Shown here: positions 30,601 through 57,510 of the stretch, one piece after another
Numbering within the stretch: the first letter of the stretch is position 1
How the letters are laid out: every line of letters begins with the position of its first letter
Made by a program: the position numbers and the translations under genes
NCBI GenBank assembly: GCA_949317995.1
Contig: OX439039.1
Span: forward strand, 72,488,002-72,552,001
DNA length: 64,000 bases
Origin: Acholoe squamosa
Lineage: Eukaryota > Annelida > Polychaeta > Phyllodocida > Polynoidae
Direction of reading: 5' to 3'
The notes under the pieces: generated by a model
Told to the model about the DNA's origin: nothing
Database searches by the model: none
Seen by the model: only the letters and a program-made list of their open reading frames with translations

Positions 30601-33600
30601 GTTTTGTCTGCCTCAAAGTGGAAGAAATGGAAGAAACTGGAAAAATGTCCCTTAACATTTAGTATATAACCCAAAATGTCACCAAATACTTTTTAAAGTA
30701 TAATAAAGACAATTACAGAGGTATCTTTACAATTTCTTCTGGTGGGGGAGTTTTTGTTTTTTCAAAATCATGATGGCGGAAACTAAATGAGTGGATATTG
30801 TCTGTTTTGTGACCTGGACAAAATTGCATTTTCAGTTCTTTCCAAAGTGAGACTAACTTCAACCTATTTTCATTCAAGGCACATATTTTTTTTGATGATA
30901 CATTGACTTAAACTGACTTTATATCTCTCATGAGTGAGAAGAAGGTTCTACAAAATATGTGATGGAAGAAACTAAATTCTGAGGAAAGATTTCTGTGTCG
31001 CCAAGTGGTTGGAATTTGCTTGTTTGGTTTCATGGCTATAAGACACATTTGTCTGAAAACTGATGACAATCTCTTGCATCTTTTCTTTTTCTTTTCTGAG
31101 TGAAATGTAACCGTCACCATTGGAAAAGTCCAATCCCAACCGGGACTCGAACCTGGCTCCTTCGGGTACCAAGCGAAAGCTCTGACCGCTGAGCTATCGG
31201 GACAGTGCTTCATCCAAGGTGAGGTATACGTGTGGATCATGGCAGGGTAGGAGAGAGTCAGAGTACAGTGGTTCCACCTGTTTTACCTGACGAACCTACC
31301 CTGCTACACTCCTCGCTACCAGCTTCAACCATACTCTCTAGTACTGAGTCACACCCAGAGTTTGCGGTATCCTGTTCCCAGGATCCTCTGAGGGTGCCCC
31401 CTGTTTCCAAGGCCACCAGCACTAGGTTTGAAGTGTTCCCAAACTGATCCACACACCTTAACCAGGTTCCTACAGGAACGCGCGGTTGGGATTCTAGTGT
31501 AACCGTCACCATTGGAAAAATCCAATCCCAACCGGGACTCAAACCCGGGTCCTTCGGGTACCAGGCGAATGCTCTGACCGCTGAGCTATCGGGACGGTGC
31601 TTCATCCAAGGTGAGGTATACGTGTGGATCATGGCAGGGTAGGAGAGAGTCAGAGTACAGTGGTTCCACCTGTTTTACCAGACGAACCTACCCTGCTACA
31701 GAAAGCTAGATAATCATCATATACATCAAATAAATGTGAAGATACTGAAAGTGAAAGATGAACAGCCATACAGATATTGAATATTATAGTCTGGTTATCA
31801 ACCCTGGGTTATTAACCTGTATAGAATGAGACTTGATCTACTGTGTGATACCATTCTTGAATATATGTTATGATTATGGACATTTCTCTTAGTTTCTGTC
31901 CTTTTTTGACTTTGAGATGGATGAAACACATTTATTAAAGAACATTCGTTCACCTGGTCTCCACATTGTTTTTTTTTTACCCTGAACCAACTACAAAGTA
32001 GAAGCCATTGCATACCAAATCCTCACTTGCTATCTAGTGTGCTAGAATTTGTGCTATGGCTTGATATGGTCAGGTAAGAAAAATGCAAGAAAATTGTATT
32101 CTTATGTCAGCTCTGGCTTTTATAGATCCCCATAGGTCTGTCTCTTCACCATGGCAGGTGAATTAAGCAAAACTCATAGCTTACATACTTTATTCCAAGA
32201 GTGTTCTGAGTGTCTTCCAGAAGAAACCTGGAAGAAACTGGACAAAATAAGTTTCTTCCAGGTTTCTTCCACTGTCCCGGAAGAAATACCTTTCTTCCGG
32301 GAAGAAACCAAGCCCTGATACACAGTAAAAAATGTCATCAAAATAACGACAAAATCCTTGTCCCTAAAATGCTAGAGATCCATGGTTATTTTCCAGAGAT
32401 GACTTGTACCACCGTACTGCCACTTGGAGCTTATTGTAAAAACTGCACTGGTTCACTGCAAAACAATTACGGTGGTTCACTGTTTAGTTTTACGAGTTAC
32501 CTGGTAGATCAACAGTTATTTTTTACAATGTACCAAATAAGCATGAAGTCTTAAAGCAGCGTGCCGTCCTTACAGATTAAGACTACTGGGCAAGGCACCT
32601 GTTCTTATCCACCAAAGCAATCTAGCAGGCAGGGTAAGCGCTAGTTCTACATTCCCAATCCAGTTCACCTCCACAATAGGGTCTGCCACGATACTGGTCT
32701 TATCTGGTTCCAAGATGATAGGATGAGGTCTAGTGCTGATGGTAGTAGTAGATGTAGTAGTAGTTAACTGTAATAAAAACACGACCAAACATCATGAATG
32801 ACACTGTTATATATTTTTGTGTATGACATGCCAAGTGCGGTAGTTCAGGCAGGCTGGTATTTATAGCTTATTCCTATCATGCTTTTCATCGTATGTCCAT
32901 TTGCCTTGCGACCCTACACCATTAAGCCAGAAGCCATTAAGTTCTATCTATCCATAATCCTAGCCATGCCTCCTAAAGCAAAGACCTTACATATAAACCT
33001 TGGCAGAGGCATTACTTTACCCATTACAACACGCAGCCTCGTTTGTACAGAAAATAAGATCTATTAAAGATGCTTTACCCTCGTTGAATCAAATTGATAT
33101 GGTAAGTCTGCCTTTTAAAGAGATGCTTAGTTCGAATGGCCCACCATTGATGTTGTATTTTACCGGCAGACACATGTAAGCTTTGGGGCCTATGCAGTCT
33201 GTATAAAGCAACTATAACTGCCTGCAATGTCATATTGGATAGTTGCTATGCAGTCTGGCCTCACCGAAAGTAAACCCCTCATCAATCATACCCTATATAA
33301 GGCAACCAGCCAGGCCAAAACACGCCTGCTTACAGCAAAGCCCACTCCAGTGACCTGTCAATTCACCAACCACTCTCCCCTCCATCATATGCCATCTCTC
33401 CACGGCCTGTAACTTATTCAGCATTGTAAAAAATATGGAGTCAAATTCAAGGCAGTTCTCTGCCAACTTTGGGACAAAGCTTTCAATGTCAATTTTTATA
33501 AAGAATCCCTGTGACACAGTGCTTGACTGTACCGCCATCTGGGGCTTCATTGTAAAAACTACACTGCTTCACTGCATTACAATTTATGGTGGTTCACCTT

Positions 33601-36600
33601 TCAATCTTACAAGGATGCCTGGTAGATTCAACAGTGGCATCTTAGGAGTGTTCCCATGCCTGATAGGTAGTAGACCAAAATACATACCGAGTAGAGGCAG
33701 GTCATTTAAACCATCAGTTTAAAGAACATGATTGGATTCAATAGGACCAGAGGGAAATAACCTGCCCCACTTCTAGTTTGAATGAGATGTTTTACCCAGA
33801 AGGTTTTATGATGGGGAGAAATGTACTTCATGCATTTGAACTAAAATACCAGCCTCATTAAAAAAAAAAAAACACATGAAGTCAATGGATGCAATGAATA
33901 TTCTCAAAAATATATGGAATAAGCAGGCAATCTGAAATCCACTGTTATCGCTTATCATTGGAAGGTTTTGGATCATCCTAGCTCAAACAATTTATCACCA
34001 GCAGAGAAAGATACTTCAGTCTTACATTAGAAATCCTAGGGCAAGATATCATTGCTAAAAGCTCTATCAAATAGACTTGGCCGACGAGAATAACTCCCCA
34101 TGGATATAAAGGTCTTTTATTGGGGACATTTCTTTGGATCTTCAGCAGGACTTCTGCTCATCCCTGCGAGTAGCTGACGAGCAGCTCGGTGCATTAGCAG
34201 AGCAGGTCCATGGTTGGAGCAGGCATTAATGTGTAGAAGCCCCTAGCTCTGTAATGCAAGATCCCTCCAGGCTCATGTATCCTCATGATGTAGATGCAGT
34301 TCTGGCTAGTTTACCTACCAGCATCAGTGCATCATGGCCATCCTTCTGTAGAGTATCAATGCCATAGGGTCGGCTTGATGCATGAGTGCAGCCCTGGTGG
34401 GTCTATATACTCCCCAGGGCTGCAGCAATCATGCATTATAATCAAGAATGGACATATGAGGACATTAATGCACTGTGATACTCTTATAGGGTTACTAAGA
34501 GACAGGCGCCTTACCCGATTATAAAGCCTTTTAGAGAAAAAGCCTAGGTAGGCACAACACAGGGCGACAATTCTCTCTATATTGGCTAGAAGGTCTTAGA
34601 AGATGTGCGTATGCATTTTAACAGCTAGGCAGCTTTCTGGTAGGCTGCTTGGCTTGTCCTAACAGGGATTCTCCATATTTCCAGCATGAGCAGCCATATA
34701 GAATGGATAGACTGTACATAACGACACAGGACATTTTTAATGCATGGCTGATCTTATATATATCCACAGGCCGAGCTGGATTCTTTCAGCATAAGACTGT
34801 ATACATAGGTATCCCACAATGGTGATATGATTAATTAAGGGAGTGATTTCAATGAGGTAAGGGACCCACTAGGCATCTATGATAAACGTGATTCGATAAT
34901 GAATAGAGGCGTAGAGAGGACTCTCCGCCTCTCCTCGTGAGGGATTATTGCTTAATTAATACAGCCGATGCACCACACTGTATTTATGCTTCTTGCTGAC
35001 ATTATCTTAACCCAACATGGGTGACCTTCACAGAGACATGGATGAATTTTACGGCAGGTTAAAATTCAAAACATTTTTCAATCCTGTAAACAGTGATTTA
35101 CAACCACCCTGGGTAGATTGTAATTCTACACCCACCCAAAATAACTTACCTGATTCCAACACTGACAGTTCATTATTGGACAGTATTGATAGATCGAAAG
35201 TTATAAAGCGCAACACTACCTGGCACCCTGGTGCCACCCCTGTCCCCCTACAAGCATATATCCTAGCAAATGAAAACAACCTTAATAATCTAATTGTAAA
35301 GTCACCTTCTAAGCATAATATATGTAAACAAGAAAACTCCTCCCTCAAATCATTAATGAAAAATCGCAAGATAGTCATTAAGCCAGCAGATAAGGGCGGA
35401 GCAATAGTCATACAAAACAGGTCAGATTATGTGTCAGAAGGCTTGTGACAACTTTCTGATACTAATTTCTACAAAGAGGTCCCTGAAGACCTAACCTCGA
35501 CCCATAATGATTATATAAATAACCATATCAACAGACTAGTCGGCCTGAAAGAAATGTCAAAGTCCTTCTTGGAGAAACTCAAAACTTCTAAACCCAGAAC
35601 GGCTCAATTGTATCTGCTACCCAAGATACATAAAGGTAAGTCACCCCCTCCTGGTAGACCCATTGTGTCCACTAATGGATGTCCCACTGAGAAGATATCC
35701 TGCCTGGTGGACTATTATCTAAGACCTTTTCTACCTTTGACAAAGTCTTATCTAAGGGATACCACTGACTTATTACTTAAATTACAGGATTTGGGCACAC
35801 TCCCCAAGGGCTGTATACTAGGGACCCTGATTGTCACCTCTCTATATACCAATATACCCAACCTTGAAGGGGTTATGTCTATTTATAAGTATCTGTACCA
35901 TAATAGAACCCCCGCCCCCCAAGGTGAGTTGTCAAATGAGGCAATCTACAGCCCGTTGTGGATTGTACTCACCAAAAACAACTTTGACTTCAATGGTAGG
36001 CACTTAAACCAAGTTGGAGGCACTGCCATGGGCACTAGAGTGGCCCCCACATATGCCAACTTATTCATGGCCCACATAGAAGAATCCAAGGTCTACACCT
36101 ATAAACTACAACCACTACTGTGGCTTAGATTCATAGATGATATATTCTTCATCTGGCCACATGGCCAAGAGGAATTAGACAACTTCACCCTCCATTTGAA
36201 TAGAAGCCATGATTCCATCAAATTCAGAGTAGTAACCTCTACTACACAGGTGGAATTCCTGGATACCACTATTCAACTGGAGGATGAAGGCAAAATCTCC
36301 ACTGATCTGTACACAAAACCCACAGACAGTTCAAACTACCTCCACTTCACCTCGGCCCACACCCGACATAGCATAAGAGGTATACTATATGGCCAATTCT
36401 TATGAATTAGGCGCATTTGTTCTGATGACCAGAAATTCTTAGAACACTGTATCAATCGCAGTAGACACTTTGTCAGAAACAGATACCCCCCTGCCTTCAT
36501 TTCACAATGCTTCCACAGAGCCAATGAAAAAAATCGCATAGACTTACTGAAGGCCAAGTCCATAAAATCCTTAGAAAAAGAGAAAATTAAGGCGAGCTTC

Positions 36601-39600
36601 TTAGTTTCCACTTACATCCCTGGATTCAATGGCATACACCGTATTGCAAAGAAAAACTGGGACCTTCTAGGGAAATCTTGCAGTACGAGGGATGTTTTTC
36701 AAGATGGCTTCAGGATGTCACACAGACCCCCGAAAATCCTGAGAGACATGTTGGTAAAATCCAAATTACCTCCTGAGGAGCCCCTTGTTCCCAAGCCAAA
36801 CAAAAACAGGTGCCTTTCCTGGCCCAAATGCAACTATTGCCCACAATTGGACAAAAGTGGCAAAAAAAAGTGCACTGTCACAGGTCGGGAATATACCAGT
36901 TAATACAATGTGTGTTGCTCCAGCACAAATTTGATCTACTGTATCACCTGTAAAATATGCAGCAAACAATATGTCGTCAAAGCCGAAAATGCCGTAAAAA
37001 ACAGATTTTCTGACCATTACGGAAAAATCAAACGCAAAGAATTCAAACGAAGTGAGGTCTCCCGTCACATGAATTCTTGCTCCAGCTGTGGACAAGACTA
37101 CAAACACAGGGACATGACCATCCATGTGGTAGATTTTATCCACGAAAATTCAAAATCCTATAGGGCCAAGTATGTAAGGAATCTATTTGAATTTAATTGG
37201 ATCCAGAAGCTCCATACAAATGCCCCTAGAGGCTTAAATGTGAGTGACCCCCTGGTCCACTAGATGACACCTGAACTGGTCTTCAACTGGGTCATTGCCA
37301 TGTACAGTTAACCCAATTTCCCCACAAAGGATATTGCCCGGTAGAGGACCATGTGTATTTTATAGTGCCTAGGCCTACAAGGGCCCTGAATAATGACATG
37401 TTAAAAACTAACCTCACAAGCTACACTTAAGACCTTGGAAAAATCAAAATACCTTTAATTTTGAATTTCTTCCGCACATACAATTTTTATTCCAGAATAA
37501 AAATCATTATTTTGGACTAGAATTAATTTTAGAAGAGGCCTGCCCCTGAAACTAATTAATTCAGTCTATTGGAATTTTTGACACTGGTTCACCTTGTGCA
37601 CCAAGTAAAAAATATCCCCACCCACCATCCCTACATGGGGGTACCGCTCAAATTAATTCTAATTTTTTGGCACTGCCCAAAACAATTACATTAATTTTAT
37701 GTCAATGCAGTCTGAGGATCCCCATAGCTGAAACCACCAGTTACTCATAATAGCACACGGTTGTTAGAGCAAACAATGCCCTGGTTACCACCTGCATGAC
37801 AACCAATTATTGTCACTGTTACATCAAGAGCCACTCAGAGTGGCTCCTGATTGGTCAATTCCGGTCACATGTCATGCACTATATAAGGGCACTTTTTCAA
37901 AATCAGTGCCATTCCAGCGATAACTGCTATACTAAACAGTCTACCCCGTATCAACCATCTTCTTGCTGACATTAGGTGATATGGACAGGGATGCCACTCA
38001 CTGCATGATCACCAAAAAGTCGGAAATTTCCCTAATTTTCTCAATTTCCAATAGGAAATACCTGTAGGAATGAAAGTCTAAAATTCAGAATTCCTTAAAG
38101 GTTAGGAAAAGTGGCACCTCTGTATGGAAAGACAAATAGATTAGCGACATTATCCCAATGTGCCGTCTGATATAAGATATATCTAGACACACTATCTGAT
38201 TTTCTTCACATCAATAACCACATTACAAAATGATTTTGTAATCGTAGGTAGATAAGGGTATGCTGAGTCAACTTAACTTAATTCACAGTGTAGTTCTCCG
38301 CCTACACTGCTGTATATGTCCCTCTGTGTGGGCATTTGCACTGATGCAGTAGTATATAATCCTTTACTTAAGATGCTAATACTACATGAATATAACCAGG
38401 CAGGTTGATACTATGCATAGAAAATGCCGTAAGCTATCTAAAAAGAGTTCAAGATGCACAGACAGTAAAATATTTCAATTAATTAAATAAATAAAAGAAA
38501 GATCTAAAAGACTGGTTGATGAGAATGAGAAAAGCGCTAGCTAATAACATCATTCCCCAGGCGTATTTATCTAATTATGGGGAGAAGGCAGGTACAAGAC
38601 AGGACACAGACAAATTCAATATGAAGGATGAATGGATGTTTAAAAGTATGATATTTGCTGTGATCGGAGGTTTCCCCTTGGGGAACACAATTACATATTC
38701 AAGTAACGCAAAATAAAATATACATTTGTATAGGCAATGGCTTGAATAACGAAATGTCAATATGTGATTATTGTAACTTGTTACTATGGTAAACGTTGTA
38801 AATGTGAGAAAAAACGTCTATCAAAATATGGGCCACCATGCTTCACGTCCCATCTAATTACTGAAAATTTAATTTCTGAATATTCTAGACTTTGTAGTCA
38901 TTTCAATGTAAAGCGTAACTGTGATGAAATATAAAATATTTATCAGTAAAGCTTGGCGATGGTGAAGACAAAATTGTATTGTCTGGCTTACTATGGAAAA
39001 GCTAGCGATTGCTTAAAAGATCTTTGAGAAAGATAGTTACCTTCCTATATGTGGCCTATATGAAAATGCACATGGCTATAAACTTACTATTGCACCTCAA
39101 AATGCTTCTATAGAATAGAGTGCAACCAATGGGAATCTTTTCAAATCTCCTCAGTCACACCGATGTAAGACCTTGTCTATTACAACAAGATCAGACTGCT
39201 TACAACTCTGGGTACGGCTTGGATAAGGGATGTATGGGTACCCCTAGTTTCCATAAACCTAACCACTATGATATCTACCGACCCATACATTCCATAAGTT
39301 GTCATGTGTGGCTGCTCTCAGGAGCAACACTTTCATTTAATGAAGTGGAAGAGGCTAAGGGAAATATATTCAGAGTTTCACCACAGGCAGTGCCATCTTG
39401 GGCAAACATATGACATTACACAAAATACTCCAAACCACTTTTTTTAAAAGGCATTGAGTCTTGTGCAAACATGACATTACATAAAATACTTCAAACCGCT
39501 TTATTGCATTCAGACGTATCACAGCTTTATTATTAAATGCTGTTTCCCAATTATATTTCAATGTATGCTCTTTGAAAAGTCTGTAATTTATGTGTAATTT

Positions 39601-42956: not shown

Positions 42957-44897
42957 CCACTGACACATATGAGAGGAAGGGGGCTATGTAGAATGCTAGT
43001 GCCACATATCCGGGACACTTTCTGGCCCACTTTCTCCCCCAGAAATGTAGAATCGTCTCCTAGGCACTTGTGGGGGCGAACATCAGAGGGAGAATGGCTA
43101 TGACTGTGACAGATAAAAGGACGTTCAGATATTGGATGGGGCTCATGCTTATTGCAAATATTTCACAGCAAAAGATTCAGAGGACCGCATTTAATCCCCA
43201 CGGCAGGATTCTGAGATCAAAACATGGTCACGGAACTGATACCTCATATAGCTACCTGAGGACAAATTTCTCATACAGCTACCTGAGGAGACATGGCAAG
43301 TCCTAGAAAAAAATGAATTAAATGAATTTCTCATAGGTCCAAGGGGATGAGGCACTCGTTAATCTACAGGGGCGTAGGAAAAGGGGGGGGGCAGGTGGGC
43401 CTGTGCCCTCCCGCCCCCCCCCCCCATGCCCCACCTCATGAAGGAGGTGGGGCCTGAGTATGTCTGGGCCCCCCAAAAAAATTGCCAAGAACTCATAAAC
43501 AAAATGGAAAAGAACCTTAAACTCTGCATCTCAAATCAGATGAAGGTTAAGTCTAGGCCACAGGCCTACATGTTATTGGCTTCTAAGTTCAATGAAAAAA
43601 AATGTTTAAGTTCTATGCAGCCCCTACAGGGTTAATTCAGCACTTTGAAAGCATTGATCTTGTATGTCAGAGATGGACCGCACCTTATCGTCTAGTGGTA
43701 TATACCCACCAAGATAGCCTTATACCCAGGGCATGTTCCGACCTCCTGCCAATACCATATCTCATTATCATCACATCCCATCTATGTTCTGCCGTTCATA
43801 TCATATATGGGTTATTGATGTTACCCTTAAGACCACCCGAAAAACAAAAGTTTCTCATGACCGCTCACTCAAAATATGTTTGGGGTATTTCCATATAATC
43901 ATTTCTTAACGGTTTATCGTCAGGATTTTATGAGAAAAAAAAATCCCCGTTTCAGTAGTGATCGGTTGTGTAATATTATTATAGTACAAATGTGTGCACG
44001 ATTGACACCATAATGTTTTAGTGTAGTAAAAAGTTAAATACAAGAGGTTGATTATTTCCATTCTATATTTCTTCTAATAAAAAGTCTAGGAAATAATACG
44101 ACCTAAAACATACTTCATTCTTGCCCTCCGATTACCAACTCTGTCATATTGAAATTCCGACACCTTTGCAGTCACATTTCCTCATCAAGGCTCTTTCAAA
44201 TCCAAAATGAGAAAAGATAAACAAGACAGAAAATCGAAATTCATCCTTGGCTTTAAAAACAAAGACAAAGTCTGAGAATTCCACTATGATTACCACCGGC
44301 TGACAAATGGGGAGATTCATTTTCGAGAAGACGAAAAAAGAAAGACAGGGATTTTTTTATTTTTTTTTAATTTATTTCAGTCACTAATGAATCGATTAGT
44401 GCTGGTGACGCTCTTGCCGCCTGTCATTAGGCTGGCCTTTACCCAGTTTTAGCACCCTGATCAGACACAAAGGCTGTTAAGATTCTAAGTGCCGGAGACC
44501 TGCCCGAGGAAGAGAGTGAAACTCTCATTTCTTTCTAATTTTTCAATTTCTTTTTTTTTTTTCAATTCAAAAGAAGGTAATTTCTCATATTGTGCCTGTT
44601 CTTCTACTATATTATTCATATTTATTTTTGCGTGAACACGTCGGGCCTAGCACACCCATCCTAATCAGGGGAAAAAAGCAAAGTACAGGGAAGGGAGAAT
44701 TTGGTTGATGATCAACTGGCAGCTGTGCCTGACATCAACAGGTAATTGAGTGGTATGGCCGTTCACAGTAGCCAGACATACAGTGTTACCGAGAGGGAAG
44801 CATTGGGTGTGTAAGTGATTTTGATATCACATAGTGCATTTAATTTTAGCAGAGAAACTGATGCTTGTCCACTGAGGCAGTGATGGTGTTAGGGCTG

Positions 44898-45312
44898 CAT
44901 TCATGCATCATGCCATCCCCACATATATACTACCAAAGGACTGAGGCTAGACGAGTCACCAGCACTGCACCCAGGCACTGCATTCATGCATCATGCCATC
45001 CCTACATATATACTACCAAAGGACTGAGGCTAGACGAGTCACCAGCACTGCACTCAGGCACTGCATTCATGCATCATGCCACCCCCACATATATACTTCC
45101 AAAGGACTGAGGCTAGACGAGTCACCAGCACTGCACCCAGGCACTGCATTCATGCATCATGCCACCCCCACATATATACTCCCAAAGGACTGAGGCTAGA
45201 CGAGTCACCAGCACTGTACCCAGACACTGCATTCATGCATCATGCCACCCCCACATATATACTCCCAAAGGACTGAGGCTAGACGAGTCACCAGCACTGC
45301 ACTCAGGCATCA
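44898..45312. repeat. 83-bp tandem array, five units (copy 1)
   Basis: The unit runs CTGCATTCATGCATCATGCC, then CACATATATACT, AAAGGACTGAGGCTAGACG and AGTCACCAGCACTGCAC. The units differ at a few sites (ATCCCC, ATCCCTACAT, ACTTCC, ACTCCC). Confidence 0.9.
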
Positions 45313-46170: not shown

Positions 46171-47615
46171 ATTTTGCAGTCCTTAAAGGGCGAGGGACAA
46201 TACCCACATAACCAAATTTTGTCATCTCTCGTATTTCCTCTATGGCTGATTCAACACTCTCCTATTGCCACCAGGCAGAGCTACTCAAGGATACAGTGAG
46301 ATGTCATTGAGAGGAGATTAAGAGCGGTAAATCGAAGGGCAAAGTTAATTAGGTGGCATTAAGTGACATGCCTAAGGGATGTAATACAACGCAGAATGGC
46401 AGTGTTTGGGAGCTATTGTCGGTGTCCCTGCAGGAAGTGCAGAGTTATGACAATCTTAGTTTGGTTTTATCCTCTTTGGTCTTAATCATAACAGTTTTAC
46501 ACGTTTACCTTTTGGTATGACTCAGCACTTTGGGAATTTTTGTTCATATGGCGTTAGTTCCTAGCTTGTCACCATGGTAGGGAAAGACGTTGTGTGTGGG
46601 AAGCAGTGGAATTATTGATAAATAATCCGTAATTCTGTATTCAGGGATTTTATGAGAAAAAAAAATCCCCGTTTCAGTAGTGATCGGTTGTGTAATATTA
46701 ATATAGTACAAATGTGTGCACGATTGACACCATAATGTTTTAGTGTAGTAAAAAGTTAAATACAAGAGGTTGATTATTTCCATTCTATATTTCTTCTAAT
46801 AAAAAGTCTAGGAAATAATACGACCTAAAACATACTTCATTCTTGCCCTCCGATTACCAACTCTGTCATATTGAAATTCCGACACCTTTGCAGTCACATT
46901 TCCTCATCAAGGCTCTTTCAAATCCAAAATGAGAAAAGATAAACAAGACAGAAAATCGAAATTCATCCTTGGCTTTAAAAACAAAGACAAAGTCTGGGAA
47001 TTCCACTATGATTACCACCGGCTGACAAATGGGGAGATTCATTTTCGAGAAGACGAAAAAAGAAAGACAGGGATTTTTTTATTTTTTTTAAATTTATTTC
47101 AGTCACTAATGAATCGATTAGTGCTGGTGATGCTCTTGTTGCCTGTCATTAGGCTGGCCTTTACCCAGTTTTAGCACCCTGATCAGACACAACGGCTGTT
47201 AAGATTCTAAGTGCCGGAGACCTGCCCGAGGAAGAGAGTGAAACTCTCATTTCTTTCTAATTTTTCAATTTTTTTTTTTTCAATTCAAAAGAAGGTAATT
47301 TCTCATATTGTGCCTGTTCTTCTACTATATTATTCATATTTATTTTTGCGTGAACACGTCGGGCCTAGCACACCCATCCTAATCAGGGGAAAAAAGCAAA
47401 GTACAGGGAAGGGAGAATTTGGTTGATGATCAACTGGCAGCTGTGCCTGACATCAACAGGTAATTGAGTGGTATGGCCGTTCACAGTAGCCAGACATACA
47501 GTGTTACCGAGAGGAAAGCATTGGGTGTGTAAGTGATTTTGATATCACATAGTGCATTTAATTTTAGCAGAGAAACTGATGCTTGTCCACTGAGGCAGTG
47601 ATGGTGTTAGGGCTG

Positions 47616-48030
47616 CATTCATGCATCATGCCATCCCCACATATATACTACCAAAGGACTGAGGCTAGACGAGTCACCAGCACTGCACCCAGGCACTGCA
47701 TTCATGCATCATGCTATCCCTACATATATACTACCAAAGGACTGAGGCTAGACGAGTCACCAGCACTGCACTTAGGCACTGCATTCATGCATCATGCCAC
47801 CCCCACATATATACTCCCAAAGGACTGAGGCTAGACGAGTCACCAGCACTGCACCCAGGCACTGCATTCATGCATCATGCCACCCCCACATATATACTCC
47901 CAAAGGACTGAGGCTAGACGAGTCACCAGCACTGTACCCAGGCACTGCATTCATGCATCATGCCACCCCCACATATATACTCCCAAAGGACTGAGGCTAG
48001 ACGAGTCACCAGCACTGCACTCAGGCATCA
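47616..48030. repeat. 83-bp tandem array, five units (copy 2)
   Basis: Same five units as at 44898 and in nearly the same variant order, 2.72 kb away. The array therefore predates the larger duplication. Confidence 0.9.
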
Positions 48031-52539: not shown

Positions 52540-52787
52540 CAATGCTGTAATGCCGTGCATATTCCTATTATGATCCAAGGAAAAAAGATCATTATATATG
52601 AACTCTATGGCCTTTGGAATGGACCTATACTTAAATATATGCTCTGATTGTGGTGCTTCCTCGCTCTCCATGTAAAATCCTGTCCCATTGCTATAGTATG
52701 GAGTAAACCTATGCCTGGATTAAAATATGCAAATAAGGAATGTGTGTGAGGGTTGGGAGTAGTGTGGTGGTGGTATTGGTGGTGGTG

Positions 52788-55700
52788 GTGTCACAATGGT
52801 CACTAACATCCATCTGATAACTTTTGAAGATCAAAATTGACCATATATGACCTGGATCCCTGTGATTCCTGAAACCAAGATGGCCGACACACAAGGAAAA
52901 CAAAAGAATTAGGTAGTTGAGGTGTCCCAATGGTCACTAACATCCATCTGATAACTTTTGAAGATCAAAATTGACCACATATGACCTGGATCCCTGTGAT
53001 TCCTGAAACCAAGATGGCCGACACACAAGGAAAACAAAAGAATTAGGTAGTTGAGGTGTCCCAATGGTCACTAACATCCATCTGATAACTTTTGAAGATC
53101 AAAATTGACCACATATGACCTGGATCCCTGTGTTTCCTAAAACCAAGATGGCCGACACACATGGAAAACAATAAAATTGGGTAGTTGAGGTGTCCAAATG
53201 GTCACTAACATCCATCTGATAACTTTTGAAGATCAAAATTGACCACATATGACCTGGATCCCTGTGTTTCCGAAAACCAAGATGGACGACACATATGGAA
53301 AACAATAGAATTAGGTAGTTGAGGTATCCCAATGACTACTAACATCCACCTCATAACTTTGAAAGATCAAAATTGACAATATTTGAGCTGGATCCCTGTG
53401 TTTTCTTAAACCAAGATGGCCGACACATATGAAAAACAATAGAATTAGGTAGTTGAGGTCTTTCAATGGTCACTAACATCCATCTGATAACATTTGAAGA
53501 TCGAAATTGACCACATATGACCTGGATCCCTGTGTTTCCTGAAAACAAGATGGCCGACACACAAGGAAAACAATAGAATTAGGTAGTTGAGGTGTCCCAA
53601 TGGTCACTAACATCCATCTGATATCTTTTGAAGATTAAAATTGACCACATATGACCTGGATCCCTGTGTTTCCTAAAACCAAGATGGCAGACACACAAGG
53701 AAAACAATAGAATTAGGTAGTTGAGGTGTCCCAATGGCCACTAACATCCATCTGATATCTTTTGAAGATCAAAATTGACCACATATGACCTAGATCCCTG
53801 TGTTTCCTAAAACCAAGATGGCCGACACACATGGAAAACAATAAAATTGGGTAGTTGAGGTCTCCCAATGGACACTAACATCCATCTGATAATTTTTGAA
53901 GATCAAAGTTGACCATATATGGCCTGGATCCCTGTGTTTTCTAAAACAAAGATGGCTGACACATATTGAAAAAAATAGAATTAGGTAGTTGAGGTCTTTC
54001 AATGGTCACTAACATCCATCTGATAACTTTTGAAGATCAAAATTGACCACATATGACCTGGATCCCTGTGTTTCCTAAAACAAAGATGGCCGACACACAT
54101 GGAAAACAATAAAATTGGGTAGTTGAGGTGTCCCAATGGTCACTTACATCCATCTATAACTTTTTTTTTAGGATCAAAATTGACCATGTATGACCTGGAT
54201 CCCTGTGTTTCCTAAAACAAAGATGGCCGACACACATGGAAAACAACAAAATTGGGTAGTTGAGGTCTCCCAATGGTCACTAACATCCATCTGATATCTT
54301 TTGAAGATCAAAATTGACCACATATGACCTGGACCCCTGTGTTTCCGAAAACCAAAATGGACGACACATATGGAAAACAATAGAATTAGGTAGTTGAGGT
54401 ATCCCAATGACTACTAACATCCACCTCATAACTTTGAAAGATCAAAATTGACCATATTTGAGCTGGATCCCTGCATTTTCTAAAACCAAGATGGCCGACA
54501 CATATGAAAAACAATAGAATTAGGTAGTTGAGGTCTTTCAATGGTCACTAACATCCATCTCATAACTTTTGAAGATCAAAATTGACCACATATGACCTGG
54601 ATCCCTGTGATCCTGAAACCAAGATGGCCGACACACAAGGAAAACAAAAGAATTAGGTAGTTGAGGTCTTCCAATGGTCACTAACATCCATCTGATAACT
54701 TTTGAAGATCGAAGTTGACCATATATGACCTGGACCCCTGTGTTTCCTAAAACAAAGATGGCCGACACATATGGAGAACAAAAGAATTAGGTAGTTGAGG
54801 TCTTTCAATGGTCACTAACATCCATCTGATAACATTTAAAGATCGAAATTGACCACATATGACCTGGATCCCTGTGTTTCCTGAAAACAAGATGGCCGAC
54901 ACACAAGGAAAACAATAGAATTAGGTAGTTGAGGTGTCCCAATGGTCACTAACATCCATCTGATATCTTTTGAAGATTAAAATTGACCACATATGACCTG
55001 GATCCCTGTGTTTCCTAAAACCAAGATGGCAGACACACAAGGAAAACAATAGAATTAGGTAGTTGAGGTGTCCCAATGGCCACTAACATCCATCTGATAT
55101 CTTTTGAAGATCAAAATTGACCACATATGACCTAGATCCCTGTGTTTCCTAAAACCAAGATGGCCGACACACATGGAAAACAATAAAATTGGGTAGTTGA
55201 GGTCTCCCAATGGTCACTAACATCCATCTGATAATTTTTGAAGATCAAAGTTGACCATATATGGCCTGGATCCCTGTGTTTTCTAAAACAAAGATGGCTG
55301 ACACATATTGAAAAAAATAGAATTAGGTAGTTGAGGTCTTTCAATGGTCACTAACATCCATCTGATAACTTTTGAAGATCAATATTGACCACATATGACC
55401 TGGATCCCTGTGTTTCCTAAAACAAAGATGGCCGACACACATGGAAAACAATAAAATTGGGTAGTTGAGGTGTCCCAATGGTCACTAACATCCATCTATA
55501 ACTTTTTTTTTAGGATCAAAATTGACCATGTATGACCTGGATCCCTGTGTTTCCTAAAACAAAGATGGCCGACACACATGGAAAACAACAAAATTGGGTA
55601 GTTGAGGTCTCCCAATGGTCACTAACATCCATCTGATAACTTTTGAGGATCAAAATTGACCACATATGACCTGGATCCCTGTGTTTCCGAAAACCAAGAT

Positions 55701-55995
55701 GGCCGATACACATGGAAAACAATAAAATTAGGTACTTGAGGTGTCCCAATGGTCACTAACATCCATCTGATAACTTTTGAAGATCGAAGTTGACCATATA
55801 TGGCCTGGATCCCTGTGTTTCCTAAAACAAAGATGGCCGACATATATGGAGAACAATAAAATTAGCTAGTTGAGGTGTCCCAATGGTCACTAACATCCAT
55901 CTGATAACTTTTGAAGATTAAAATTGACAATATATGAGCTGGATCCCTGTGTTTCCTAAAACAAAGATGGCCGACACACATGGAAAACAACTAGG
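52788..55995. repeat. 134-bp satellite with ten-unit higher-order period
   Basis: About 24 units of 134 bp. Each contains CACTAACATCCATCTGATAA, GACCTGGATCCCTGTG, CCAAGATGGCCGACACAC and AATTAGGTAGTTGAGGT. Distinctive variants recur exactly 1342 bp apart: CATCTATAACTTTTTTTTTA at 54151 and 55493, and the CATTT(G/A)AAGATCG variant at 53491 and 54833. Ten-unit blocks have thus been duplicated. Open frames of about 70 codons on the minus strand are repeat artefacts. Confidence 0.95.
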
Positions 55996-56079
55996 AGGTG
56001 TGTGTTTGATGGATTAAGGAAATTAGTTAAGCACGGCATAGCCGTGGTGATTTATTTTGTCATGGTTAATTATAATGCT

Positions 56080-57510
56080 TAAAGTGTGCATCAATGTAGC
56101 AGGTCACCCATAAAGGGTTAATTGTGCATCAATGCATCATGCCATCCATAAAGGGTTAAGTGTGCACCAATGCATCATGCCATCCCTAAAGGGTTAAGTG
56201 TAAATCAATGTATCATGCCATCTATAAAGGGTTAAGTGTGCATCAATGCATCATGCCATCCCGAAAGCGTTAAGTGTACATCAATGCATCATGCAACCCA
56301 TGAAGGGTTAAATGTGCATCAATGCATCATGCAATCTATAAAGGGTTAAGTGTGCATCAATGCATCATGCCATCCCTCAAGGGTTAAGTGTGCATCAATG
56401 CATCATGCCATCTATAAAGGGTTAAGTGTGCATCAATACATCCCTAAAGGGTTAAGTGTGCATCAATGCATCATGCTATCCATGAAGGGTTAAGTGTGCA
56501 CCAATGCATCATGCCATCTATAAAGGGTTAAGTGTGCATCAATGCATCATGCTATCCCTAACGGGGTTAAGTGTGCATCAATACATCATGCTATCCATAA
56601 AGGTCTAAGTGTGCACCAATGCATCATGATATCCATAAAGGGTTAAGTGTGCATCAATGCATCATGCAATCTACAAAGGGTTAAGTGTGCATCAATACAT
56701 CTATAAAGGGTTAAGTGTGCATCAATGCATCATGCCATTCATAAAGGGTTAAGTGTGCATCAATGCATCATGCCATCTATAAAGGGTTAAGTGTGAATCA
56801 ATGCATCATGCTATCCATAAAGGTCTAAGTGTGCACCAATGCATCATGCCATCCATAAAGGTTTAATTGTGCATCAATGCATCATGCTATCCCTAAAGGT
56901 TAAGTGTGCATCAATGCATCATGCAATCTACAAAGGGTTAAGTGTGCATCAATACATCCATAAAGGGTTAAGAGTGCATCGATGCATCATGCAATCTACA
57001 AAGGGTTAAGTGTGCATCAACACATCTATAAAGGGTTAAGTGTGCATCAATGCATCATGCCATTCATAAAGGGTTAAGTGTGCATCAGTGCATCATGCCA
57101 TCTATAAAGGGTTAAGTGTGAATCAATGCATCATGCTATCCATAAAGGTCTAAGTGTGCACCAATGCATCATGCCATCCATAAAGGTTTAATTGTGCATC
57201 AATGCATCATGCTATCCCTAAAGGTTAAGTGTGCATCAATGCATCATGCCATCTATAAAGGGTTAAGTGTGCATCAATACATCCCTAAGGGGTTAAGTGT
57301 GCATCAATGTATTATGCTATCCCTAAAGGGTTAAGTGTGCATCAATGCATCATGCCATCTATAAAGGGTTAAGTGTGCATCAATACATCCCTAAGGGGTT
57401 AAGTGTGCATCAATACATCATGCTATCCATAAAGGTCTAAGTGTGCATCAATGCATCATGCCATCCATAAAGGTTTAAATGTGCATCAATTCATCATGCC
57501 ACTTAAAACT
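56080..57510. repeat. 38-bp satellite related to the CCCTTTAAGG MITE ends
   Basis: The unit is AAAGGGTTAAGTGTGCATCA followed by ATGCATCATGCCATCTAT, with some 24-bp short units that lack the middle. About 36 units. A block of several units, marked by GTGTGAATCA, recurs 325 bp apart (56791 and 57116). Confidence 0.95.

Follow-up and report, generated by a model that had tools for sequence, protein, structure and literature searches.

A miniature LTR retroelement of Acholoe squamosa whose primer-binding site matches the tRNA-like sequence of its own LTRs

What is a complete tRNA-like sequence doing inside the long terminal repeats (LTRs) of a small retroelement? The question is raised by a locus in the annelid Acholoe squamosa, in a stretch of 64,000 nucleotides on C5 of the 1.48-Gb genome (contig OX439039.1; the whole stretch is called the window below), where a 595-bp gene-less LTR element occupies positions 31106–31700 with its sense strand on the minus strand. 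LTR elements and retroviruses are classically viewed as borrowing a host tRNA as the primer of reverse transcription. In this element and its relatives, the primer-binding site (PBS) is complementary to the 3′ terminus of the tRNA-like sequence that the element itself carries, once CCA is appended, and this holds in four subfamilies, which among them show three discriminator bases and two acceptor ends. Judging from the sequences, we consider it quite probable that the element is a terminal-repeat retrotransposon in miniature (TRIM) of the Helenus type, in which the tRNA-like gene of the LTR would serve both as an internal RNA polymerase III (pol III) promoter and as the source of the primer for reverse transcription. 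It also appears probable that the relatives form a naturally occurring lineage in which the LTRs function as tRNA genes and make the primer for the elements' own reverse transcription; a change in the tRNA would then be followed by a rewritten PBS, since the primer would be copied into the PBS in every round.

The two 203-nt direct repeats are 96% identical and offset by 392 nt. ARAGORN predicted a tRNA-Thr(GGT) on the minus strand of both, which sets the sense of the element; read on that strand, the 5′ LTR (31700–31498) is followed by the core and then by the 3′ LTR (31308–31106). Coordinates and repeat comparison agree with the first-pass annotation of this DNA, which had described 203-bp direct repeats with TG...CA ends, GAAA on both sides and a 189-bp core without genes. 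That annotation had also placed a 72-nt tRNA-like sequence at LTR positions 106–177 of the sense strand, where it was recovered by ARAGORN and by Rfam; the match between the PBS and the 3′ end of the LTR's own tRNA was absent from it. The features are as follows.

31102–31105, no strand: left target site duplication GAAA, same as 31701–31704 (sequence reading)
31106–31308, minus strand: 3′ LTR, 203 nt, TGTAGC...GTTACA in sense (repeat comparison, LTR search, core junctions)
31124–31127, minus strand: run of four T, possible pol III terminator, 4 nt past the tRNA 3′ end (sequence reading)
31132–31203, minus strand: tRNA-like sequence of the 3′ LTR, Thr-GGT, 72 nt (ARAGORN; Rfam tRNA, 45.9 bits, L001:1527–1598)
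31309–31320, minus strand: polypurine tract abutting the 3′ LTR, GGTAGCGAGGAG in sense (sequence reading; relatives)
31309–31497, minus strand: gene-less core, 189 nt (core search, core/LTR junctions)
31466–31479, minus strand: perfect 5-bp inverted repeat GTTCC-TGTA-GGAAC, just past the PBS (sequence reading)
31483–31496, minus strand: predicted PBS (complementary at 13 of 14 nt to the element's own tRNA-like 3′ terminus with CCA added)
31498–31700, minus strand: 5′ LTR, 203 nt (repeat comparison, LTR search, core junctions)
31516–31520, minus strand: run of five T past the 5′-LTR tRNA, possible pol III terminator (sequence reading)
31524–31595, minus strand: tRNA-like sequence of the 5′ LTR, Thr-GGT, 72 nt (ARAGORN; Rfam tRNA, 55.7 bits, L001:1919–1990)
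31701–31704, no strand: right target site duplication GAAA (sequence reading)

By eye, the inverted repeat after the PBS reads GTTCCTGTAGGAAC in the window family and ATTCTATGGAAT in other relatives, and comparable inverted repeats of differing sequence lie past the PBS in L126, L127 and L129.

At the gathering threshold (29 bits for tRNA), Rfam matched solely tRNA (RF00005) in the four loci L001, L033, L075 and L096. The tRNA-like sequence contains A and B boxes, lies at LTR positions 106–177 in sense when the LTRs are aligned, and is followed by a T-run whose four columns each show T in all but one or two of the 44 aligned LTRs (42 or 43). CCA is not encoded in the LTR; directly 3′ of the tRNA we mostly found GGAC, TGGAC, GAGAC or GAAGAC, with GGAC in most copies of subfamily A. 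Completed with CCA, the LTR-specific tRNA ends read GGGATT-CCA and GTGTCTCCA-CCA. The distance from the tRNA end to the LTR end is 26 nt in subfamily A and 24–25 nt in subfamily G.

The PBS sits one base past the 5′ LTR and consists of TGG followed by the element's own tRNA end in reverse complement. In subfamily A it is TGGAATCCCAACCG in most two-LTR copies, with a base changed or lost in some, and the tRNA end plus CCA is complementary to it over 14 nt. Subfamily B has a Ser-CGA anticodon arm, the tRNA end GGGATA and the PBS TGGTATCCCAACCG, while subfamily C, represented by three loci, combines a Thr arm as in A with the tRNA end GGGATC and the PBS TGGGATCCCAACCG. When the discriminator base was compared with PBS base 4 at 45 parsed 5′ junctions, a count that includes near-duplicates and leaves out rows lacking a PBS-like start, the pairs were A-T in 23, T-A in 16, C-G in three, G-A in two and A-A in one. 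As scored, 42 of 45 junctions agree. The G-A rows, L004 and L020, are script misreads; inspected by eye they are T-A, which brings agreement to 44 of 45. The 5′ junction of L029, missed by the script, was likewise read by eye. Leaving PBS base 4 free yielded 15 divergent PBS-like sites, seven of them with a tRNA end. All seven agree at the discriminator by eye, and several are mismatched further in. The other eight, having no tRNA, were set aside as chance matches.

Subfamilies A to C share much of their acceptor end. A pattern of tRNA ends plus trailer matched 175 sites, and among the 100 listed the acceptor end barely varied, so that A to C alone were unable to test other acceptor ends; subfamily G did so. 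A tRNA family search, in which 63 of 97,417 candidates were scored, brought out tRNA pairs 458–459 nt apart, and these constitute subfamily G. Its LTRs measure 249–250 nt and differ by 0–3 positions within each of the seven two-LTR copies, which are 707–709 bp long; four of the seven show a perfect 4-bp duplication. The tRNA of G is of the Ala(TGC) type with the end CCCGGTGTCTCCA, and its PBS, TGGTGGAGACACCG, is complementary to the own tRNA: in 10 elements the run is 13–14 nt long, and in L141 it reaches 18 nt. Among 20 loci fetched, nine had no such PBS beside the LTR. Since A and G have core blocks in common (E values of 2e-6, 9e-6 and 3e-5), they are kin whose tRNA and PBS changed in step. 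The length seen in L141 is that reached by retroviral PBS copies, in which copying of the primer halts at the modified A58.

Five representatives, L010, L039, L075, L144 and L141, were chosen for a cross table of tRNA ends against PBSs. Contiguous complementarity within the own pair was 12 nt (A, L010), 14 nt (B, L039), 14 nt (C, L075), 14 nt (G, L144) and 18 nt (G, L141), whereas a PBS matched the tRNA of another subfamily over 3–4 nt. When each PBS region was shuffled 200,000 times, no shuffle attained the own value, the top ones reaching 9–13. Furthermore, the LTR end joined to the A-type PBS (ACANTGGDATCCCAACCG) occurs at 32 genome sites against one for the control, and 31 of the 32 are LTR ends of the known family. 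Together, the shuffles and this pattern led us to reject chance complementarity. The remaining site is L125, a degenerate tRNA-bearing relative; no autonomous partner or helper was found by this search, L125 being its sole PBS site beyond the known copies.

Resolution was poor in a tree built from 45 cores, and the long rows L076, L078, L084 and L087 were left out for the pair test on a core tree. This test provided four supported independent pairs, which pointed in the same direction in 3.9 of 4 cases on average (sign test, p 0.125). Four loci at C8:5.29–5.62 Mb (L047, L051, L091 and L092) are B-type, have very similar cores and fall in one starred group of the 45-core tree; they are probably one duplicated insertion.

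Is the element an LTR retroelement at all? Conceivably, a tRNA-like sequence with A and B boxes could belong to tandem dimers of a tRNA-derived short interspersed element (SINE), and additional tandem units are indeed present in L004 and L125. We regard this as extremely improbable. The LTR query gave at least 41 matches, 40 of 385 candidates having been scored, and these resolved into 31 loci: 11 two-LTR elements with the core, 15 solo LTRs and five other arrangements. A perfect 4-bp duplication surrounds 18 of the 26 typed loci, against a chance of 1 in 256 for each. It was found at seven of the 11 two-LTR loci, the remaining four agreeing at three of four bases, and at 11 of the 15 solo LTRs, with three of four bases in three more and one of four in the last. 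In a core search (40 of 642 candidates scored), 20 loci entered the same census; 14 were two-LTR elements, 11 of them with a perfect duplication. Complete cores adjoin complete LTRs without a gap, and most two-LTR copies carry the purine tract GGTAGGGAGGAG before the 3′ LTR. In addition, the solo LTR L009 and the two-LTR loci L019 and L023 have a common flank and a common duplication, CTGA, and thus present one insertion before and after LTR recombination. The constant core, the solo LTRs, the 4-bp duplications around both pairs and solos, the PBS and the polypurine tract identify the element in the window as an LTR retroelement rather than a SINE, as the first-pass annotation had proposed in calling it a miniature LTR element. 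The census that it suggested, counting pairs, single repeats and duplications, has thereby been made, and the copies do not fit the SINE structure named there as its refutation (a tRNA at the 5′ end, a tail and no constant core): the tRNA lies mid-unit, the ends are TG..CA and there is no tail.

Eleven further loci, L094–L104, contain a solo LTR of a related subfamily, D (TGTAGCAGGAGTAGG...CACCACTACA, duplication CATG), in which ARAGORN predicted a tRNA-Thr TGT in 10 of 11. This solo LTR occupies an identical position inside another dispersed repeat and was copied along with that repeat. Being a single copied solo LTR, subfamily D gave no PBS.

A Pfam scan of four open reading frames of the window gave zero matches. 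Three neighbouring open stretches at 35011–36903, also without a Pfam match, resemble a decayed reverse-transcriptase gene; they include an LPKIHK motif, which we take to be reverse-transcriptase-like. Elsewhere in the window, large tandem arrays with units of 134 bp (24 copies) and 38 bp (39 copies) extend over 52787–57501, and two arrays of five 83-bp units, at 44895–45309 and 47613–48027, have almost the same units.

Does the element, then, supply its own primer, or does an ordinary cellular tRNA prime it? A cellular primer is usual for LTR elements, and it is to cellular tRNAs that the PBSs of bivalve Helenus families were assigned (Kojima 2024, PMC10886601); the tRNA-like sequence of the LTR would then be of the same descent and act only as a pol III promoter. 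We consider this unlikely here. A tRNA-type T-loop joined to the A-type end occurs at 46 genome sites, and all 46 lie within LTR relatives: 26 in loci fetched earlier, as established by coordinate match, and 20 in loci fetched anew, each of which resembles the LTR. Across the fetched loci, 40 of 40 distinct A-type contexts are LTR-like, 39 of them past the tRNA into the trailer; L060 and L064 are the weakest LTR matches. Among these 46 sites, no cellular tRNA with the exact A-type end was found. A wider pattern including the B and C ends matched 195 sites (100 listed; control, six). Twenty unusual sites were fetched from these, and in 19 of them the likeness to the LTR extends past the tRNA; in the exception, L123, it does not, and an LTR-like end follows by eye. 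Moreover, each of the three discriminator bases would demand a separate cellular tRNA.

For subfamily G, the control pattern matched 135 sites, of which 100 were listed. Forty-nine of these form a dense one-strand array at C15:5088374–5129432, ending CATCTCCA, which is likely a cellular cluster of Ala-type tRNA genes. Its ends match the G PBS over 9 nt, versus 14–18 nt for the own tRNA. Many dispersed copies of GTTCGACTCCCGGTATCTCCAT among the listed sites are probably one more tRNA-bearing repeat family. On these pattern searches we largely reject a cellular primer tRNA for A, where the case is firm. For B, C and G we reject it less firmly, the case there being good without being closed.

Several observations weigh against an own-tRNA primer. 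The B and C ends were checked in a sample, the 20 unusual sites, and 17 of the 100 listed G-pattern sites (135 in all) have the G-type end with another next base, outside obvious LTRs. Within subfamily A, the tRNA part is no more conserved than the remaining LTR (across 44 LTRs, the minor-allele fraction is 0.040 for the tRNA, 0.024 for the part preceding it and 0.040 for the part following it), which speaks against strong recent constraint, and single-strand folds of four tRNA-like sequences gave no clear cloverleaf (z from −1.39 to 0.63). The PBS of the window copy has one mismatch (13/14). L029 agrees at PBS base 4 and not further in, and in L032, which is a mosaic, the tRNA of the 5′ LTR is at odds with the PBS while that of the 3′ LTR agrees. 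The match ends at about 14 nt in A to C, where 18 would be expected if freshly copied from a primer; all examined G copies except L141 stop at 14 nt or less, and L141 itself is without a target duplication. The four independent tree pairs may reflect recombination rather than new mutations, because the tRNA end and the PBS, about 27–30 nt apart in the element RNA, are close enough to move as one block. Finally, Kojima found no complementarity between LTR tRNA and PBS and stated that the tRNA plays no part in initiation (PMC10886601); a PBS matching the own tRNA is accordingly not general.

The ends of the PBS and of the tRNA also bear on two readings in which the complementarity has other uses. 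Tf1-type elements are primed by the 5′ end of their mRNA, not by a CCA-ended tRNA. By analogy, the 3′ half of the tRNA-like sequence might fold onto the PBS in cis and be cut into a primer without a mature tRNA being formed, and with the tRNA end some 27 nt from the PBS in one RNA such a fold-back would be easy; Tf1-type self-priming is named in the part of PMC6934838 available to us. We judge this distinctly unlikely, since the PBS begins with TGG, the complement of a CCA missing from the LTR sequence at the tRNA end, which points to a matured tRNA; the limit of 18 nt in L141 is likewise consistent with a mature tRNA bearing a modification. Alternatively, the complementarity could be structural, a hairpin hiding the PBS or aiding packaging with no role in priming. 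The same covariation would be expected from such a hairpin. It would leave the TGG unexplained, and the site sits right at the edge of the LTR, the position required of a PBS, with no other PBS evident there, so we hold this to be very improbable.

Priming by the LTR-made tRNA, the reading we prefer, suggests the following cycle, in which transcription, processing, CCA addition, priming and the identity of the helper are what we infer from sequence. Pol III would initiate just upstream of the LTR tRNA. Stopping at the T-run would give a short precursor, which trimming and CCA addition would convert into a mature tRNA, while read-through would give an RNA extending up to the T-run of the 3′ LTR, with the tRNA gene itself as its terminal repeat. 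The mature tRNA could then pair with the PBS beside the 5′ LTR and prime reverse transcription. A helper, probably a Ty3/Gypsy element as the 4-bp duplications suggest by Kojima's argument, would provide the reverse transcriptase in trans. Plus-strand synthesis would copy the primer end into the PBS, so that tRNA and PBS stay matched; such copying back would explain the 18-nt match of L141.

If this is true, an element whose LTR encodes the primer would not depend on the host tRNA pool, there would be a reason for a small RNA gene inside LTRs, and the PBS would hold a natural record of the primer used. What looks new, as far as sequence comparison can tell, is the priming and not the architecture, these families being an apparent exception to Kojima's finding. 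A PBS fitting the own tRNA contradicts the one published survey that we found on the point (PMC10886601), and searches of openly licensed PMC papers turned up none that describes a natural LTR element primed by a tRNA of its own. The architecture is known: the first-pass annotation had taken a tRNA version of such LTRs for a distinct one, a view that is out of date since the description of Helenus.

Helenus (TRIMp3; Kojima 2024, PMC10886601) comprises TRIMs of 311–1263 bp with tRNA-like sequences in their LTRs and, in animal families, 4-bp duplications; over 200 families are listed in that survey (113, 40 and 51 for three groups), and some bivalve families are of the tRNA-Thr type. The element in the window is a Helenus element by the structural features tested. 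It shares the TRIM size (595 bp in the window; the G copies likewise fall in the range), the gene-less core, LTRs whose tRNA-like sequence has A and B boxes, a PBS after the 5′ LTR, a polypurine tract before the 3′ LTR, solo LTRs and the 4-bp duplication of the animal type. It differs in that the PBS there fits cellular tRNAs, whereas here it fits the own LTR tRNA and tracks its changes. Cassandra of plants and Ajax of nemerteans similarly carry a small RNA gene or pol III promoter inside TRIM LTRs; theirs is a 5S rRNA in contrast to the tRNA found here, Rfam having matched tRNA alone in the four loci named above, and the primer of Ajax was named as a cellular tRNA-Leu (PMC10886601). The bivalve biv-TRIM elements resemble ours in having solo and tandem forms, but a canonical PBS was not identifiable in them, according to the part of PMC6934838 available to us; the Tf1-type self-primed retrotransposons named in the same part have an element-derived primer in common with the present case. 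In cqgypsy_1 of Culex, as described in the accessible part of PMC3286476, whole tRNAs lie at the 5′ LTR/PBS region beside a 26-nt LTR duplication. That element belongs to the Osvaldo lineage, was detected as a single copy and has two tRNAs, and pairing with the PBS is not stated in that part; by analogy with it, read-through of a primer tRNA could be the origin of LTR tRNAs such as these. A further parallel comes from a murine leukaemia virus vector for which a tRNA-like primer was engineered (Lund 1997, as cited in PMC3185771), a supplied tRNA-like RNA complementing a changed PBS; that primer was man-made, whereas the one proposed here is apparently natural and encoded in the LTR.
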